Source: a virus. Taken from it: a stretch of 64,000 bases of DNA. The stretch lies in IMG/VR virus record IMGVR_UViG_3300045921_000191, positions 46,656 through 110,655 of that record. One strand, written 5' to 3'. The first letter of the stretch is position 1. Each line of letters starts with the position of its first letter. Below, piece after piece: positions 738 to 52,536 of the stretch. Both the position numbers and the translations under genes were made by a program. The notes beneath the pieces are model-generated. The model saw only the letters and a program-made list of their open reading frames with translations, searched no databases and was not told the origin of the DNA.

Positions 738-1826
738 TTAAAGTTCCGCGTCCGCAGTCCAATGCATTTTAATTTGTGCTCCTGCCGTTTGACTGTTAAC
801 TAATGCACCAAAATTTCGGTCGTTGGATTCAGAACCTATTGTAAGAGCTACATCAGAGGCGCCGACTCGGATTTGGTTGACCGCGCCCGTATCTGCACTA
901 TAAAGAATAACAGAAGGTGAAGCTCTCTTGCGTACAGCATAAGTATTTCCAATTCTAAGTTGACCAGTCGAACCTACGCTGCCCCAATCAGGACCAGCAT
1001 TGCTTATCGCTGCTGGAACTACATCGATTGCGTAGCTTTTTTCATAGTAACGTTGGCAAAGAGCAAGCTCTTCTTGAATGGTTCTTCCTGCGCGAGAAAA
1101 GCCAGTGGCCCCCATGCTGGAACCTTCAACCAGAGATACTTGAGCAAATAGCATATTGTTAGTATTCAAATCCATAATATTTGCAAATGCTGCAGCAGTA
1201 GTCGTGTAAAAAGTACCAGTTGACCACGCGTTTAGGCTTCCACCTTGCCAAGTTGTTCCTTGGGCCGCTGGAGCTAATGTGATTTCCATTGCAAGTTGAT
1301 TATCAAACAAGTAAGCCCCAGTGCTTTCAAAAGTCACTGCTACAGTTTTGAATTCCCAAGTATTAGCGGCGCTGATTGCAAATGTTGAAATTAAATTTCT
1401 ATTTGGGCCAGAAACCGTATTAAAAGCTACTGGAAAAGTTCCTGTCTTAGAGGACTTGACCCAGAAAGATAAAGTACAAGCTTTTCCATGAAGACGTTGG
1501 TAGTCTTGACCTTCCATGCGGTAGGTAAGAGGACGCACAAGATCTCCAGCAGCAGGAGAGGTAAGAGCAGTTAAACAATTGAAGCGGTAGCTGTATAAAG
1601 ACGCGTTTCCCGATTGTGCAGGAGTAGGAACATCAGTAGATCGCAGAATTGAAAAGTTTTTAGAAGTAGCTCCAGTGCCGTAACAGCTCATGCGATCTGC
1701 CGTATAAAGGTATACCGTAGAAGCCGTATTCACTGTAGTAGTTGTGCCTACCACTCGTTGCCAAAAATCAAAATTACCATTTATGATAAAGTTTCGATCA
1801 TTTCTATCAATTCTAGGTGTTCCCAT
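738..1826 (-). CDS. Tail fibre protein, carbohydrate-binding-like (paralog)
   Basis: 362 aa. The N-terminus contains NFIINGNFDFWQR and YTADRM. The middle is a beta-rich domain (about residues 75-240), then ELALCQRYYEKSY, and the C-terminus ends HWTADAEL. The 328-aa protein at 3273-4259 shares all of these landmarks. Such C-termini are common on phage fibre and receptor-binding proteins. An SD-like AAGGAAGG lies upstream of the ATG. It lies between two other fibre genes, with a 9-base gap to the next. Probably an exposed fibre or tip subunit; specificity unknown. Confidence 0.82.
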   Translation of the reverse strand: MGTPRIDRNDRNFIINGNFDFWQRVVGTTTTVNTASTVYLYTADRMSCYGTGATSKNFSILRSTDVPTPAQSGNASLYSYRFNCLTALTSPAAGDLVRPLTYRMEGQDYQRLHGKACTLSFWVKSSKTGTFPVAFNTVSGPNRNLISTFAISAANTWEFKTVAVTFESTGAYLFDNQLAMEITLAPAAQGTTWQGGSLNAWSTGTFYTTTAAAFANIMDLNTNNMLFAQVSLVEGSSMGATGFSRAGRTIQEELALCQRYYEKSYAIDVVPAAISNAGPDWGSVGSTGQLRIGNTYAVRKRASPSVILYSADTGAVNQIRVGASDVALTIGSESNDRNFGALVNSQTAGAQIKMHWTADAEL

Positions 1827-1839
1827 TACTCATCCTTCC

Positions 1840-3087
1840 TTAAGGCACAAACGTAGGCTTGCCATTTAATTGAACATCTCCAGAAACGACCCACTCGGTG
1901 GCTGCGGCATTTGCTGCCACGAGCATAGTCGCAGCATTATTGTTTGCTACGGCGTACCATCCGATAGATCCGCCATTGTTTCCAGCAGCGCAGCAGGCCT
2001 GACCAGATGTAAAACCATTTGCAAATGTTAACCCAGTAAATGTTAAGGTTGTTGAAGTGGCGGAAGCAGTTGTGCCTCTTAGATTAAACTTCATCCTCCA
2101 TGAGCCATCCCGAGTTCTATAAGGAACTCCGACTCCTTTTGTCAGGGAGAAAGAGTTGGTGCCAGAAACAGTCAAATCATACTGAGTCAAGGCTGAAAGA
2201 TTATCTCCTACGTAATTATCAATACTCTGCTTATTGCTGAGTACAGTATCACCAAAAGCTTTACGCTCCACTTCCGTAGGCGAAGCGGTCAAGTAATCCG
2301 TTACTGGATTACCAAACGCAATCGCAGCATCTTCAGCTAATCGTTGAATGATCCCTTGTTGACGCTCAAGATCTGAAAAGATCTGAACATCGCCACTGTA
2401 AATCTGAAATCCGATCTCAAACTGAATCAAATCACTTTGAACAGCAGGAGCGTTATTGAGTTCTATAGTAGTTCCGTACCCATTGCCAGCATCAATTTCT
2501 TGATAGTTACCATCAGCGCTAGGAGAGGCTGTAGCGTTACCTGTGTTACGAACTTGTAATACACCGTTACGCCAGATCTTAACTGCTCCAATTTGCATTG
2601 CAGCATTTTCGTTAACTTTGAAAATAGATCCCAAGTTGACAGTAGTGTTTCCTACGGGAACTTCTACAGTTCCTTTGATATTACGGCCTTCGCTAACGAT
2701 TAGATCGCTAACAGGCACTTGATCAATCACACCTTCAAAAATCTCACCATCAGCAGCACCTACGTTTAAGTAGTTACCAATGAGCATGATAGTTGTTGCG
2801 GTTACTGGAATAAAATCTAGATCTTGAATGAGCATTCCGCCCAAAGAAGATTTAAGTGAGAGGTTCTTTTTATTGATGGTTAGACGCGCAGCAGCAATTT
2901 CAGCAGCCGAGGCGTTAACAAAACTTGGCATTTCAGGAGGAGTCGTAAGAGCGTTCAAATCGATAGTCGTTTGCCCCAGAGTTGCCTTATGAGCAAAACG
3001 AATTTTACGCGTTGCGACAGCAGGAGAACGCGAAGGAGCAACGTCCTTCTTCCTGATCGAGATAGCTTGTTTTCCGAAAGTACTCAT
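1840..3087 (-). CDS. Virion fibre-associated protein with beta-module
   Basis: 415 aa. The N-terminal part is basic and polar. Around residues 165-235 there is a beta module with the pattern AVKIWRNGVLQV, a Y-E segment and an acidic turn. The same module recurs in the proteins at 6205-6504 and 10310-12814. The C-terminus is rich in Thr, Ala and Gly and looks beta-structured. AAAAGGAAT precedes the ATG. No enzymatic motif is visible. Its position among fibre genes supports a fibre or baseplate-appendage subunit; exact role unknown. Confidence 0.7.
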   Translation of the reverse strand: MSTFGKQAISIRKKDVAPSRSPAVATRKIRFAHKATLGQTTIDLNALTTPPEMPSFVNASAAEIAAARLTINKKNLSLKSSLGGMLIQDLDFIPVTATTIMLIGNYLNVGAADGEIFEGVIDQVPVSDLIVSEGRNIKGTVEVPVGNTTVNLGSIFKVNENAAMQIGAVKIWRNGVLQVRNTGNATASPSADGNYQEIDAGNGYGTTIELNNAPAVQSDLIQFEIGFQIYSGDVQIFSDLERQQGIIQRLAEDAAIAFGNPVTDYLTASPTEVERKAFGDTVLSNKQSIDNYVGDNLSALTQYDLTVSGTNSFSLTKGVGVPYRTRDGSWRMKFNLRGTTASATSTTLTFTGLTFANGFTSGQACCAAGNNGGSIGWYAVANNNAATMLVAANAAATEWVVSGDVQLNGKPTFVP

Positions 3088-3115
3088 ATTCCTTTTACCT
3101 TATTCTAATCAAAGA

Positions 3116-3271
3116 TTACAAGTCCTTGATGGGAGTATTTGACCAACCAGTAATTGGTGCTTCGACCTCTACCGTATAATTTGTTCCATCAAAATTGCAA
3201 GTAATAATTCCTGCTGAGTGAGAAAGAACGATCCTAGGTTTGTAAGTAGATCTAGTAATTAATTGTGCCAT
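3116..3271 (-). CDS. Small hypothetical virion-region protein
   Basis: 51 aa, beginning MAQLITRSTYKPRIVLSHSA and ending SNTPIKDL. Start codon at 3271 lies one base past the end of the next upstream fibre gene; stop TAA is at 3116-3118. Composition suggests a small beta protein (CNFDGTNYTVEVEAP). It lies between two fibre genes on the same strand with tight spacing, so it is probably co-translated. I do not recognise the family; a fibre accessory or chaperone is possible. Confidence 0.6.
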   Translation of the reverse strand: MAQLITRSTYKPRIVLSHSAGIITCNFDGTNYTVEVEAPITGWSNTPIKDL

Positions 3272-3272
3272 C

Positions 3273-4259
3273 TTATAGCTCCGCGTCCGCGGTCCAATGA
3301 AAAGCTACTCGGTTTCCAGAAACAGTTGTGCCTGTAAATATAACAGAGTCTCCAGATTCAGATGGATCGTTAGTTCTAGCACATGCTATGTTTGTGCCTG
3401 CGGTAATGTCCCTACCTGAACCTGAAGCTCCAGTTGCGGTATTATATGTTAAAAAAGTATAGTTTGAAGTTCTTTTAAGAACCCTAAAATACACATGATA
3501 CGTTACGTTAGTTGTAGTTGGGCTTGTTTCAAAATGTGCTCCATTTAAAACTGCGGTTCCAGGAGCATCATCTAATCTATAACTTTTCTCATAGTAACGT
3601 TGGCACAATGCTAATTCGCCAGAAACATCTTCTCCAGCTAAAGCAAAATTAGCTGGCGCAGCGCCTTCATTGAGCATCACCTGAGCCAGATCAATAGTCA
3701 TTGTGGTATTTAGCGGTAATGCTAATATTAGTCGAATATAGTCAGAACTAGTTCCTAATGTTTTACCTGCGATTGAGGGAATAGAGAAAGTTAAAGTAAA
3801 TTTTTTCCAACTGGTAGTTAGGTTTACGGTCTGAGCTGCGGTTGAAACAGGACTTGAGGGAGATCCTCCTGAACCAAACACTTGTTGAAAACTAACGTTC
3901 ACGCTGCGTGCTGCATCTGCTTTTGCATAAAAACTAAGGGTTGCTTGTTTTCCAGCTAGAGTTCTGACAGATTCAATTTTGTGTTGAATTTGTCTAGCAG
4001 TAGACCCAGAGCCAGCTACAGTCTGCGCCCATCTATAAAAATAAGTAGGTTCTCCTGGAACATCTGTTTGGCCAAGAGTAAAAGCTTGTCTGGAAATTGT
4101 AAATGTTCCAATTGAACCGTCGTAGAAATGCGTAAAACGATCAGCCGTGTACGCTCCAGAAGAAGGGGTGGTAAACGACGTGCCGCGTTGCCAAAAGTCA
4201 AAGTTACCATTTATGATAAAATTTGGACTTGAATTTTTAATTAATCCTATTGTCGCCAT
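3273..4259 (-). CDS. Tail fibre protein, carbohydrate-binding-like (paralog)
   Basis: 328 aa. It opens with NFIINGNFDFWQRGTSF and AYTADRF. A beta-sandwich-like middle (about residues 60-205) follows, with alternating strands typical of carbohydrate-binding modules. Then come ELALCQRYYEKSY and the ending HWTADAEL. It is clearly paralogous to 738-1826 and 1-728. Its ATG overlaps the stop of the upstream fibre gene (TAATG), so translation is coupled. The divergent central segment against conserved ends is what is expected of receptor-binding paralogs; receptor unknown. Confidence 0.82.
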   Translation of the reverse strand: MATIGLIKNSSPNFIINGNFDFWQRGTSFTTPSSGAYTADRFTHFYDGSIGTFTISRQAFTLGQTDVPGEPTYFYRWAQTVAGSGSTARQIQHKIESVRTLAGKQATLSFYAKADAARSVNVSFQQVFGSGGSPSSPVSTAAQTVNLTTSWKKFTLTFSIPSIAGKTLGTSSDYIRLILALPLNTTMTIDLAQVMLNEGAAPANFALAGEDVSGELALCQRYYEKSYRLDDAPGTAVLNGAHFETSPTTTNVTYHVYFRVLKRTSNYTFLTYNTATGASGSGRDITAGTNIACARTNDPSESGDSVIFTGTTVSGNRVAFHWTADAEL

Positions 4260-48318: not shown

Positions 48319-48516
48319 ATGTTACTCGATTACCAAGACGAAATCGTAAAACTAGAAGATGAAAAATTTAAAGTTATTTTACGTTACGGAGAGTGTGAAT
48401 TCGTAGCGGAGCGTCTAGCTTCGCTGGATAAAAAATTAGAAAGGTTATACGAATGGCTGGCAACAGAGAAATCAAAGGACTCTTTGGATCGCCTAAACCG
48501 AAAGCTGATGTCATGA
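48319..48516 (+). CDS. Small charged early protein
   Basis: 65 aa, helical and highly charged (DEIVKLEDEKFKVILRYGEC, then LASLDKKLERLYEWLATEKS). It starts exactly at the predicted transcription start and has no SD. It overlaps the aminotransferase gene by 64 bases in another frame, which lowers confidence a little. Function unknown; possibly a leader gene coupling translation. Confidence 0.55.
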   Translation: MLLDYQDEIVKLEDEKFKVILRYGECEFVAERLASLDKKLERLYEWLATEKSKDSLDRLNRKLMS

Positions 48517-49412
48517 GGGTTTGGTCGGACGGACATATCATTCATACCAAACGGCAAATCGACTCCTTGAATTTTGTGATGCATTACGGTTCTCCTGCGT
48601 GTTGGGAAGGAATTCGTTCATATCTACAAAGTAATGGCACCACTAAAATTTGGAAGCTAGAAGAACATGTCAAGCGTTTGTTCGATTCCGCGAAGATCCT
48701 AGGAATAGAAATTCCATTCACTCAATACGATATACAAGAAGCCTGCCGCCGCGTAGTGGAAGCAAACGGTAATGGCGATTTATATTTGCGTCCTATCGTT
48801 TACTCGACCCAGGACGCGGAATCAGTTCGTCAAGTAGATTATAAAATTGCAGTAGATATTTATGCATTCCCAATAGCTAAATTAGGCCGAGAAGAAGGTA
48901 TTACTGCTAAAATTGCTTCTATGGCCCGCGGCTATCCACAATTTCAAATGCAATGTAAGAATCCTGCAAATTACGCAATTTTAAATAATCTTAAGAATGA
49001 AATGGCAGGAGTGGACGAATTACTATTTTGTGACAATCAAGGATACGTAGTTGAGGCCACCGTGGCAAATCTTTTCATAGTTAGAGGTGATCAAGTGTTT
49101 ACCCCACCCAATGAAGGATCAATTCTTCCTGGTATAACTCGAAGAACTGTGGCCGAGATTTTGGGGGACAACGCTATGATGTTTTCAAAATATAATAAAC
49201 ACGTAAAAGTTATGGAAAAGCGCATAACACGCCCAGATCTTTATACCGCAGACGAAGTGTTTATGTGTGGTACTTTTGCTGAAATTGTCCCAATTATACA
49301 AATCGATGGAAGAATTATTGCTGACGGAAAGCCTGGATTTTATAGTAGAATGGTACTTAAGAGTTACCAAGACCTGGTTAGAGGTAGAAATGCCGATTAT
49401 AGAAAGTCTTGA
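48453..49412 (+). CDS. ilvE: Branched-chain amino acid aminotransferase (class IV, PLP)
   Basis: 319 aa, family length. The family landmarks are in order: HYGSPACWEGIRSY (44-57), the RPIVY block (113-117), the PLP lysine block QCKNPANYAILNN with K169 aligned to the catalytic Lys, VVEATVANLFIV, PNEGSILPGITRRTV, and DEVFMCGTFAEIVPI near the C-terminus. All residues of a functional enzyme seem present. It interconverts Leu/Ile/Val and 2-oxo acids, which is unusual for a phage. AGAAAGG lies upstream of the ATG. It probably supports host metabolism or precursor supply during infection, which is inference. Confidence 0.9.
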   Translation: MAGNREIKGLFGSPKPKADVMRVWSDGHIIHTKRQIDSLNFVMHYGSPACWEGIRSYLQSNGTTKIWKLEEHVKRLFDSAKILGIEIPFTQYDIQEACRRVVEANGNGDLYLRPIVYSTQDAESVRQVDYKIAVDIYAFPIAKLGREEGITAKIASMARGYPQFQMQCKNPANYAILNNLKNEMAGVDELLFCDNQGYVVEATVANLFIVRGDQVFTPPNEGSILPGITRRTVAEILGDNAMMFSKYNKHVKVMEKRITRPDLYTADEVFMCGTFAEIVPIIQIDGRIIADGKPGFYSRMVLKSYQDLVRGRNADYRKS

Positions 49413-49870: not shown

Positions 49871-50209
49871 ATGTCTAAAAACTTAAAAGAAAAACTAGCT
49901 TTACTTCTGAAAGATACCGAACGACTGGGAGATGTAGAGCGTCTTAACCGCTTAGAGCGCCTCGTTCAACAAGAGATAGACGATCTTAGCACCGAGCATC
50001 AACTCACTTTTAATGATCTAGCTTATATACGATCAAGGGCTATTTCGATCTATAATGATGAAAATATGGCAGCTTTTAACGTAGAAGGCCATAGCCATCG
50101 TTCTGAGCCAGAGAATTTACGGACCTACTCCTTTGTTTCGGCAACTATCGATTTTCTTCGAGGAAACGGTCTAACTAAGATTAAAGTTAGTATCAAAAAA
50201 AGAACTTGA
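49871..50209 (+). CDS. Hypothetical helical protein
   Basis: 112 aa. Helical and charged (LKEKLALLLKDTERLGDVER, then LEQ-like heptads), with a polar C-terminal half ending KVSIKKRT. The stop TGA lies inside the TTGACA of the next promoter. No recognised domain. The coiled-coil start suggests a dimer. Confidence 0.6.
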   Translation: MSKNLKEKLALLLKDTERLGDVERLNRLERLVQQEIDDLSTEHQLTFNDLAYIRSRAISIYNDENMAAFNVEGHSHRSEPENLRTYSFVSATIDFLRGNGLTKIKVSIKKRT

Positions 50210-50234
50210 CAAATTGAGTCAAGTATGTCATACT
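50206..50234 (+). promoter_or_regulatory. Early promoter upstream of the GGDEF gene
   Basis: TTGACA (50206-50211), 17-base spacer, CATACT (50229-50234). Predicted +1 near 50241, giving a leader of about 35 bases with AAGGA before the TTG start. Unlike the leaderless set, it has a leader with an SD. Confidence 0.6.
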
Positions 50235-50275
50235 CCTTTATAGCTTGGAAAATTCCAAGAAGAAAGAAGGACTGA

Positions 50276-50995
50276 TTGAACCTCCCAAAAATAGAACCTA
50301 AAGAGAATGCAGAAAATGCGTTTTTAGAAGCCAGACTGGAAAATTCAGACTTTAACGTGGCTTTCATAGATGTAAATGGCTTAAAACTAGTAAACGACGT
50401 TTACGGTCACTCGCAGGGCGATTTACTTATCCACGCCTTAGCAATGGCCTTTTCACAACAACTACATCCAGACGAACGAGTCTTCCGATTTGGAGGAGAT
50501 GAATTCGTGGCCATTTTAAAACCCAGAACCAGACTACAACTCCTACAACTAGCTACAGTGTTGGAATCGGAAATGCAGAAATTTGCTGGTATAAAAGTTG
50601 CAACCCTCGCAGTAGGGTTTGTAAAAGAGTCTGAATACGCTAATTTCAATCAATTGATTGAGGGTGCGGACGCTTTAATGTATGAATCGAAGTTGTCAGG
50701 TCGTCCCATTTATCGTGAAGATAAAGTAACTCCAGACTCTATTAGAGCGCGAGATCCAAAAGCTTTGTTTAGAAGGGACTATTTCACCTTAATACTTAAA
50801 ACTGTGCTTCAGACTTATCCCGAATTGAAGAACGCAGAAAATCTAATGCGAGATGTTCGACACTTTTGGAGAGCTTACGATGGGGAGTATTTTGAATCTT
50901 TATCACCTTCACAATTAATAAATAAGTTAGTGGATTATTTACCTGTTGAAAGGAAGAAACAACATGGCGCTCAAAAAAGCAACCGAAGTAGCTGA
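50276..50995 (+). CDS. GGDEF diguanylate cyclase
   Basis: 239 aa from TTG at 50276, with AAGGA five bases upstream. The GGDEF domain spans about residues 10-150: FIDVNGLKLVNDVYGHSQGD with metal-site D32 and guanine-site N40 and D49, then FRFGGDEFVAIL with an intact GGDEF at 73-77, and ADALMYESK at the domain end. The base-binding Asp is kept, so the product is predicted to be c-di-GMP, not the cGAMP of Hypr variants. I see no RxxD inhibitory site ahead of GGDEF, so product inhibition may be absent. The last 85 residues are an uncharacterised helical domain. It acts in the cytosol; effects on host motility or surface state are inferred. Confidence 0.85.
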   Translation: MNLPKIEPKENAENAFLEARLENSDFNVAFIDVNGLKLVNDVYGHSQGDLLIHALAMAFSQQLHPDERVFRFGGDEFVAILKPRTRLQLLQLATVLESEMQKFAGIKVATLAVGFVKESEYANFNQLIEGADALMYESKLSGRPIYREDKVTPDSIRARDPKALFRRDYFTLILKTVLQTYPELKNAENLMRDVRHFWRAYDGEYFESLSPSQLINKLVDYLPVERKKQHGAQKSNRSS

Positions 50996-51257
50996 GTCTG
51001 TTAAAACGAGACGAGAAGCCGCTGTCCACTCTCAGGTGGATGCTTTGATGGAGAATATAGAGAAGTCCGTCGAAGCTATGATGGAAAATACGTTTATTGA
51101 GGTAGATTTGCCTGAAGACACAATTAGCGGAGTATTGACTACTGTGGTAGAGCGTCTTCGAGAACTCGGGTATAAAACTTGCTTAGTTGAGCAAGTGAAT
51201 CGAGAATCTGAGATCATTGAACGTAGGCTTAGAGTCTCAGTAGCACACTTAGGATAA
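50964..51257 (+). CDS. Small protein downstream of the GGDEF gene
   Basis: 97 aa from the ATG at 50964 (AGGAAG upstream), overlapping the GGDEF end by 32 bases. Helix-rich: EAAVHSQVDALMENIEKSVE, then a hydrophobic segment (ISGVLTTVVERLRELGYKTC) and VEQVNRESEIIERRLRVSVA. Coupled translation with the cyclase suggests a partner or regulator, which is inference. Family unknown. Confidence 0.6.
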   Translation: MALKKATEVAESVKTRREAAVHSQVDALMENIEKSVEAMMENTFIEVDLPEDTISGVLTTVVERLRELGYKTCLVEQVNRESEIIERRLRVSVAHLG

Positions 51258-51305: not shown

Positions 51306-52145
51306 ATGAACTTAGTAAAAACTCAAAATACAACAAATGTATTGATTCAGTTTATTAATAGTTTTGTGTCGCCTCAAACTCGCAGGTCCTATTCCAACGA
51401 CTTGAAAGGGTTCTTTGAGTTTGTTGGACCCCTTAATTCTCCAGCAGATCTTCAACCAATTCACATTTCAGCCTTTCGAGATAAAATTGCAGCAGACGGA
51501 GCGTCTACAGCAACTATTAATAGAAAGATTTCTACAATCAAATCTCTAACTCGCTGGCTAATTCAAAACGGGCACCTAACCACAGACCCTACAATATCTG
51601 TAAAAGTTCCAAAGGTAGTTCATTCTCGTTCTACGGAAGCTTTTAAAGACGAAGAAGTAGCTAAGATTCTTGAAATCGTAGAAGATATTTCACACAAGAC
51701 ATTATTGATGACCCTGTTTTATACAGGCTTGCGCCGATCTGAGGTGGTAAAGTTAAGCCCAGCCAGCATTGTTCAGCAATCAGGTCTCAGCGGCTTTAAG
51801 GTTATAGGTAAGGGCGGCAAAGAACGCCTCGTAGCTATTCCAGAAGAACTTACTAAACAACTTAATATCTACTTTCAGCGCACGCGGATAGGTGACTTTT
51901 TGTTCGAGATGGACGAGTCCACTGTGTACAGGATCGTAAAACGTTATGCTGCGAAAGCTGGAGTGAAGGGCCGATTCGGAGCGCATTCTTGCAGAGCCAC
52001 TGTGATTTCAAATCTACTAGATAACCAAGTCCCGATCCGAGATGTAGCTAATTTTGCAGGTCATAGTTCAGTAAACACTACAACTCTTTACGATAAAAAG
52101 CGAAAAGGTCTAGCAGATAATGCTGGATATAAGATTAGGTACTAG
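51306..52145 (+). CDS. Tyrosine recombinase / XerD-like integrase
   Basis: 279 aa. The N-terminal SAM-like domain has RRSYSNDLKGFFEFVG. The catalytic residues are R143 (TGLRRSE), K172 (GKGGKERL), H227 and R230 (AHSCRA), H253 (GHSSVNTTT) and Y262 (LYDKKR), so all are present. The size resembles XerC/D-type recombinases; no arm-binding domain is obvious. It could integrate the genome, resolve multimers or invert a segment. No attachment site was identified. It is coupled to the Rrf2-type gene that follows. Confidence 0.88.
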   Translation: MNLVKTQNTTNVLIQFINSFVSPQTRRSYSNDLKGFFEFVGPLNSPADLQPIHISAFRDKIAADGASTATINRKISTIKSLTRWLIQNGHLTTDPTISVKVPKVVHSRSTEAFKDEEVAKILEIVEDISHKTLLMTLFYTGLRRSEVVKLSPASIVQQSGLSGFKVIGKGGKERLVAIPEELTKQLNIYFQRTRIGDFLFEMDESTVYRIVKRYAAKAGVKGRFGAHSCRATVISNLLDNQVPIRDVANFAGHSSVNTTTLYDKKRKGLADNAGYKIRY

Positions 52146-52146
52146 A

Positions 52147-52536
52147 ATGTTGATTACCAAGAAAACCCACTATGCTCTAATCGCCCTGATAGATGTATGT
52201 CATCACTCTGGAGATCCAGTTAGCACTGCAAAGATTGCGGAACGACAAAACCTACCTAAAGCATTTCTTGATCAAATTTTCAACGTGCTAAAAAAGTCTA
52301 AAATCGTCCAAGTACAAAGAGGCCCAGGCGGAGGATACACGCTGTCTGATAAACCTGAAAACATTAGAGTTGAAGATATAATCTCGGCAATTGGCGATTT
52401 TGAGATATCAGTAGAAGCTGTTGGAAGTTCCCCAGAAGCTAAACGAGTAAACGAATACGTAAGGCTTTTGAACGACAAGGTTTGGAATTATTTCTCTATC
52501 TCTTTGAGAGATTTAGCGGAAGGAAAATATGACTAA
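52147..52536 (+). CDS. Rrf2-family transcription regulator
   Basis: 129 aa from the ATG at 52147, directly after the recombinase stop. Classic Rrf2 layout: MLITKKTHYALIALIDVC, helix-turn-helix (STAKIAERQNLPKAFLDQIF), then the wing QRGPGGGYTLSD and a dimerisation helix. The three Fe-S cysteines of IscR are absent around residues 85-105, so it probably lacks a cluster. Rrf2 proteins are usual in bacteria but rare in phages. It may regulate its own operon or host genes. Paired with the recombinase, a lysogeny-type decision is possible but unproven. Confidence 0.85.
   Translation: MLITKKTHYALIALIDVCHHSGDPVSTAKIAERQNLPKAFLDQIFNVLKKSKIVQVQRGPGGGYTLSDKPENIRVEDIISAIGDFEISVEAVGSSPEAKRVNEYVRLLNDKVWNYFSISLRDLAEGKYD

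Follow-up and report, generated by a model that had tools for sequence, protein, structure and literature searches.

A stand-alone GGDEF gene at a variable genome position in a phage, a putative weakly regulated diguanylate cyclase

Does a virus carry an enzyme that makes a bacterial second messenger and, if so, what could control it? The question is raised by a GGDEF (diguanylate cyclase) gene at 50276..50995 on the plus strand of the window, by which we mean the whole 64,000-nucleotide stretch analysed here, the final 64 kb of a 110,655-bp virus record. The gene encodes 239 amino acids from a TTG start and is defined by its open reading frame, by matches to PF00990 and TIGR00254, and by an ortholog in a related phage. 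It is the sole GGDEF match of the 110,655-bp record. The record belongs to a phage, as indicated by a major head protein of SPO1-group type, a head maturation protease and an integrase near the GGDEF gene, and by open reading frames in its other half that resemble, on reading, DNA polymerase, primase/helicase, ribonucleotide reductase and RecA. The integrase, a tyrosine recombinase (51306..52145, plus strand), lies downstream of the GGDEF gene. Directly 3' of it we noticed an Rrf2/IscR-type transcription regulator (52120-52536), a homolog of which was not seen in the examined stretches of related phages.

An intact catalytic site

The GGDEF catalytic domain spans residues 10–143 (50303..50704, plus strand), as judged from the Pfam extent, invariant alignment columns, AlphaFold and Foldseek, and contains D32, N40, D49, the GGDEF motif at residues 73–77 and K139. 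PF00990 scores the protein at 79.5 bits against a cut-off of 23.8 (E=3e-22, far above chance), and NCBIfam TIGR00254 at 73.2 against 37.4. An initial sequence-only reading had named D32, N40, D49 and GGDEF 73–77 as catalytic landmarks, and an alignment of 70 GGDEF domains bears this out: D32, N40 and G73–F77 are identical in all 70, and D49 in 69 of them. Eleven columns of this alignment are invariant (D32, N40, G44, G48, R71, G73, G74, D75, E76, F77 and G114) and nine are nearly so. At these columns the window copy departs only at S112, where it has A, and the related ortholog nowhere. The A-site is intact, with GG(D/E)EF, the metal Asp and the guanine-binding Asn and Asp all present. Structure prediction and a search against GGDEF enzymes, which the same reading had proposed as a check, returned a GGDEF fold: the domain is modelled by AlphaFold with a pLDDT of about 95 (mostly 93–97), and all 50 of the PDB matches listed by Foldseek are GGDEF-family proteins (DosC, 4zvg, E=3e-10).

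Hypr GGDEF enzymes, which make cGAMP, carry a Ser at the position of the guanine-recognition Asp. The window protein has D49 there, not Ser, which speaks against this class; going by this residue, GTP and c-di-GMP are the favoured substrate and product.

A sigma-70-like promoter sequence (TTGACA-17-CATACT, with TG before the -10 element; 50206..50234, plus strand), of a kind expected about 0.013 times per 120 bases, lies about 40 bases 5' of the start codon, and a Shine-Dalgarno-like AAGAAGGA precedes the TTG. The related ortholog supports this start: its sequence MKLPFRVEPKE, aligned with MNLP-KIEPKE of the window protein, starts from an ATG at the same residue. In the leader between promoter and start codon lies an operator-like near-palindrome, CTTGGAAAATTCCAAG (50244-50259); as an inverted repeat it is at chance level for the window and was set aside.

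Missing regulatory elements and an added C-terminal region

Known diguanylate cyclases are subject to product inhibition via RxxD, and their DxLT turn couples the input domain to the catalytic domain (PMC8041772, PMC6733907). Both features are gone from the window protein. The RxxD that stands five residues before GGDEF in product-inhibited enzymes is replaced by a degenerate primary I-site, HPDE (residues 64–67; 50465..50476, plus strand), in agreement with the earlier observation that no RxxD precedes the motif. The loss is specific to the window copy, since the ortholog reads RFKD and a GGDEF protein of another relative, L003, reads RKND at this site; the I-site state therefore differs between the two orthologs.

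The PF00990 match begins only at profile position 17, and the DxLT..NR wide turn, which is typical of regulated diguanylate cyclases but not strictly defining, is therefore missing too. In the alignment the N-terminal segment MNLPKIEPKE (50276..50305, plus strand) stands at the site of the cellular DxLTGLxNR. The turn is replaced in both the window protein and its ortholog by LP..[KR][IV]EPKE, with EPKE at xxNR. An N-terminal input domain is lacking as well. The proposal of a phage diguanylate cyclase without an inhibitory site thus gains from sequence, fold and the ortholog at the same position, but it had overlooked the loss of the DxLT/NR turn. With RxxD and DxLT both gone, regulation would have to come from expression or from the C-terminal region.

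This C-terminal region (residues 150–239; 50723..50992, plus strand) had been described as a helical domain of no known family, and that description stands. AlphaFold predicts its roughly 90 residues as helical at low confidence (pLDDT 52–76), and the C-terminal part of the ortholog, in which the region is partly conserved, is likewise predicted to be helical. The region matched nothing in Pfam or in 50,697 phage records. With some bacterial GGDEF-EAL proteins the BLAST alignment runs on into EAL; we rejected a degenerate EAL domain, however, as the score of the region against an EAL profile does not exceed that of its shuffled versions and the profile-profile probability is near zero. Bdellovibrio DgcB, when reduced to its GGDEF domain, was not significantly active (PMC6733907), so the pairing of subunits may require the C-terminal region.

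A variable position among related phages

A scan with the capsid protein retrieved relatives with 72–76% capsid identity. Upstream of the capsid operon these have a common backbone that contains a class IV (IlvE-like) aminotransferase (48453..49412, plus strand), which adjoins the variable position in all relatives examined, and in most of them also anchor gene A and the integrase. Anchor A (112 aa; 49871..50209, plus strand) marks the left border of the variable position and has homologs in L003, L004, L011, L013, L017, L018 and L034. Anchor B (97 aa; 50964..51257, plus strand) forms the border on the right, shares 32 bases with the GGDEF gene and has a homolog in L003. The aminotransferase has a core-metabolic look, and its copy in L003 seems, by reading, to be without the PLP lysine. 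Searches with the aminotransferase for host kinship gave matches of only ~35%, from mixed taxa. Prophage relatives, sought in genome contigs by capsid, were not confirmed, and a single-sequence scan of viral contigs with the window GGDEF protein gave zero matches.

The ortholog lies on a 113-kb contig, L034, whose capsid protein is 75% identical to that of the window. It is a 275-aa GGDEF protein encoded in the same position, with the same N-terminal start, and is 31% identical to the window protein over 218 residues (pair E=1e-26), in an alignment that continues into the C-terminal region. A tree built from 71 sequences pairs the two proteins at 95/95 and does not place the L003 GGDEF protein with them; the bootstrap of this tree is not fully settled, and the EPKE columns may help the pairing. 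Anchor A has diverged to about the same extent (30% identity, against 30% for GGDEF). This similar divergence is consistent with old shared ancestry at one position. That the active-site residues are kept in both copies despite 31% identity argues for selection on the catalytic site.

Among 28 capsid relatives, GGDEF proteins were found in only L003 and L034. Because many of the contigs are fragmentary, we take absence into account only where the variable position is visible, as it is in seven relatives without GGDEF (L004, L010, L011, L013, L015, L017 and L018). As these share the backbone and have no GGDEF protein at all, its function is dispensable.

The L003 contig, 11.8 kb long, holds a different set at this position. 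Flanked by its counterparts of anchor A and anchor B, one strand carries a PilZ, a REC-GGDEF and an HD-GYP-like gene (1357-3787). The PilZ protein matches PF07238 with 27.8 bits against a cut-off of 22.5 and has the motifs RKEAR (RxxxR) and DISLNG (DxSxxG); the REC-GGDEF protein scores 124.6 bits for GGDEF and has the RKND I-site; the HD-GYP-like protein scores 96.3 bits for HD_5. In the REC domain the phospho-acceptor Asp is replaced by Gly, and the HD-GYP domain, which reads HDIGN and HHExxNG, has lost its first conserved His. Owing to these changes, control by phosphorylation has probably gone, and it is doubtful that the HD-GYP-like protein works as a phosphodiesterase. The set was probably acquired separately from the window/L034 gene, and its presence here indicates that c-di-GMP functions have been placed at this position more than once. 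PHROG families gave no match to the L003 PilZ and HD-GYP proteins, phage records gave none to the PilZ protein, and 13 other GGDEF-bearing viral contigs were without a PilZ match. This trio of genes is more of a surprise than the window gene, but it was seen on a single contig and falls outside the window. Three further viral contigs of 31–132 kb (L056, L057 and L061) encode a different GGDEF family of about 410–430 aa with GGDEF in the C-terminal third, which may be a phage structural or ejected protein.

Proposed function, alternatives and known systems

Judging from sequence and predicted structure, we consider it reasonably probable that the window gene encodes a stand-alone, weakly regulated phage diguanylate cyclase that raises c-di-GMP and alters host motility or surface. 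Two copies of the soluble enzyme would join two GTP molecules into c-di-GMP. Without an input domain, DxLT turn or RxxD, activity would be set mainly by the gene's own promoter and by the C-terminal helical region, which may bring the subunits together or bind a partner from phage or host. During infection or lysogeny, c-di-GMP would rise and act through the host's own receptors, on which the enzyme would depend, since PilZ, EAL and HD_5 gave no match in the phage record. The most likely outcome would be less motility or changed surface structures. It is from the features described above that we infer enzymatic activity, the c-di-GMP product, dimerisation, weak regulation, timing and a benefit to the phage. 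A counterpoint to activity is that the productive dimer is normally set with the help of the DxLT turn and a coiled coil, both of which are missing here.

The same gaps could suit a nucleotide-binding receptor or scaffold, which would bind GTP or c-di-GMP and signal via its C-terminal region without making a product. The DxLT turn and N-terminal dimerisation element are missing, and the extra C-terminal region has no known function. Receptor-type GGDEF proteins, however, usually have a broken GGDEF motif and a retained RxxD site. The window protein presents the reverse pattern, with GGDEF intact and RxxD gone, and its catalytic residues are kept at 31% overall identity. The receptor-only alternative, raised from the outset, is weakened by the intact catalytic site and the loss of the primary c-di-GMP-binding I-site, and we regard it as unlikely. 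We also think it improbable that c-di-GMP is the phage's own timing or decision signal (lysis versus lysogeny, superinfection exclusion) and that a protein of the phage or of a prophage reads it. A synthase, a PilZ receptor and an HD-GYP-like protein do occur together at this position in L003, and the window and most relatives have an integrase, but a recognisable receptor was not found in the window phage, and the L003 proteins lack the first His ligand of HD-GYP and the phospho-acceptor Asp of REC.

Phage early genes often serve counter-defence, which would fit a product that competes with or feeds cyclic-nucleotide immunity (CBASS, Panoptes-like). The Panoptes palm-domain enzyme is structurally close to GGDEF and makes decoy cyclic nucleotides, but mCpol proteins are nearly devoid of the GGDEF motif (PMC12657218), which is perfect in the window protein. 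PADLOC models (2023 version, which may lack Panoptes) gave no convincing match, and none above noise, for the GGDEF protein and the tested neighbours, and a role in defence or counter-defence seems very unlikely. A decaying, host-derived passenger gene without present function would account for the patchy presence among relatives and for the lost I-site and DxLT turn. This is hardly to be expected of a gene with an open frame, a promoter-like site and a same-position ortholog that keeps its active site over deep divergence.

The diguanylate cyclase reading, which we prefer, has precedents. A phage-borne second-messenger synthase had been called uncommon, and it is, but it is not new: the annotations of Bacillus phages SP-15 and G, and those of Bordetella/Yua-like siphoviruses, already include GGDEF enzymes. 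One of the top viral fold matches, SP15_150 of Bacillus phage SP-15 (183 aa), is a single GGDEF enzyme encoded in a carbohydrate-gene cluster (PMC5977210); unlike the window protein, it has a hydrophobic, membrane-like N-terminus, keeps the turn as DHLT..NRR and has no C-terminal extension. The best viral fold match, gp350 of Bacillus phage G (254 aa), likewise has a hydrophobic N-terminal region and a retained DCLT..NR turn, and no C-terminal domain. Vojvodinavirus/Yua-like siphoviruses (Bordetella LK3 and CN1) also encode a GGDEF protein and have an integrase in the genome, but they are an unrelated phage group and the CN1 protein has 152 aa. Lysogens of LK3, which encodes a GGDEF enzyme, are reported to be hyperbiofilm formers, a correlation only (PMC8471281). 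Mobile elements other than phages also encode diguanylate cyclases that change biofilm and motility, namely DgcK/DgcL in SXT/R391 ICEs and Dgc137 in a genomic island of Vibrio (PMC10672970). The cellular enzymes DosC, PleD and DgcR share the GGDEF fold and active site, but have N-terminal input domains, the DxLT turn and in many cases RxxD, whereas the window protein lacks the input side and has an extra C-terminal region. Matches such as Pseudomonas phage Y11 and Escherichia 683R6 were discarded as precedents, as they look like bacterial DNA in phage records. Phage GGDEF enzymes are thus already known, and it is the layout in the window that is new: by sequence, the window and L034 enzymes are set apart from those of SP-15 and phage G by the absence of the DxLT turn and the added C-terminal region.

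It is conceivable, if doubtful, that these phages form a family with a variable c-di-GMP position, occupied either by a diguanylate cyclase that has no input domain but a new C-terminal region, or by a complete synthase/PilZ/HD-GYP-like set, and that some of them make and read their own signal in infection or lysogeny. The L003 set leads directly to the question of whether phages run their own second-messenger circuits. As a natural diguanylate cyclase without the regulatory turn and with a new C-terminal region, the window protein could serve to ask why the DxLT turn and the N-terminal dimer element are needed. Should it be active, a virus would be using a minimal c-di-GMP synthase, largely free of regulation, to change the behaviour of its host.
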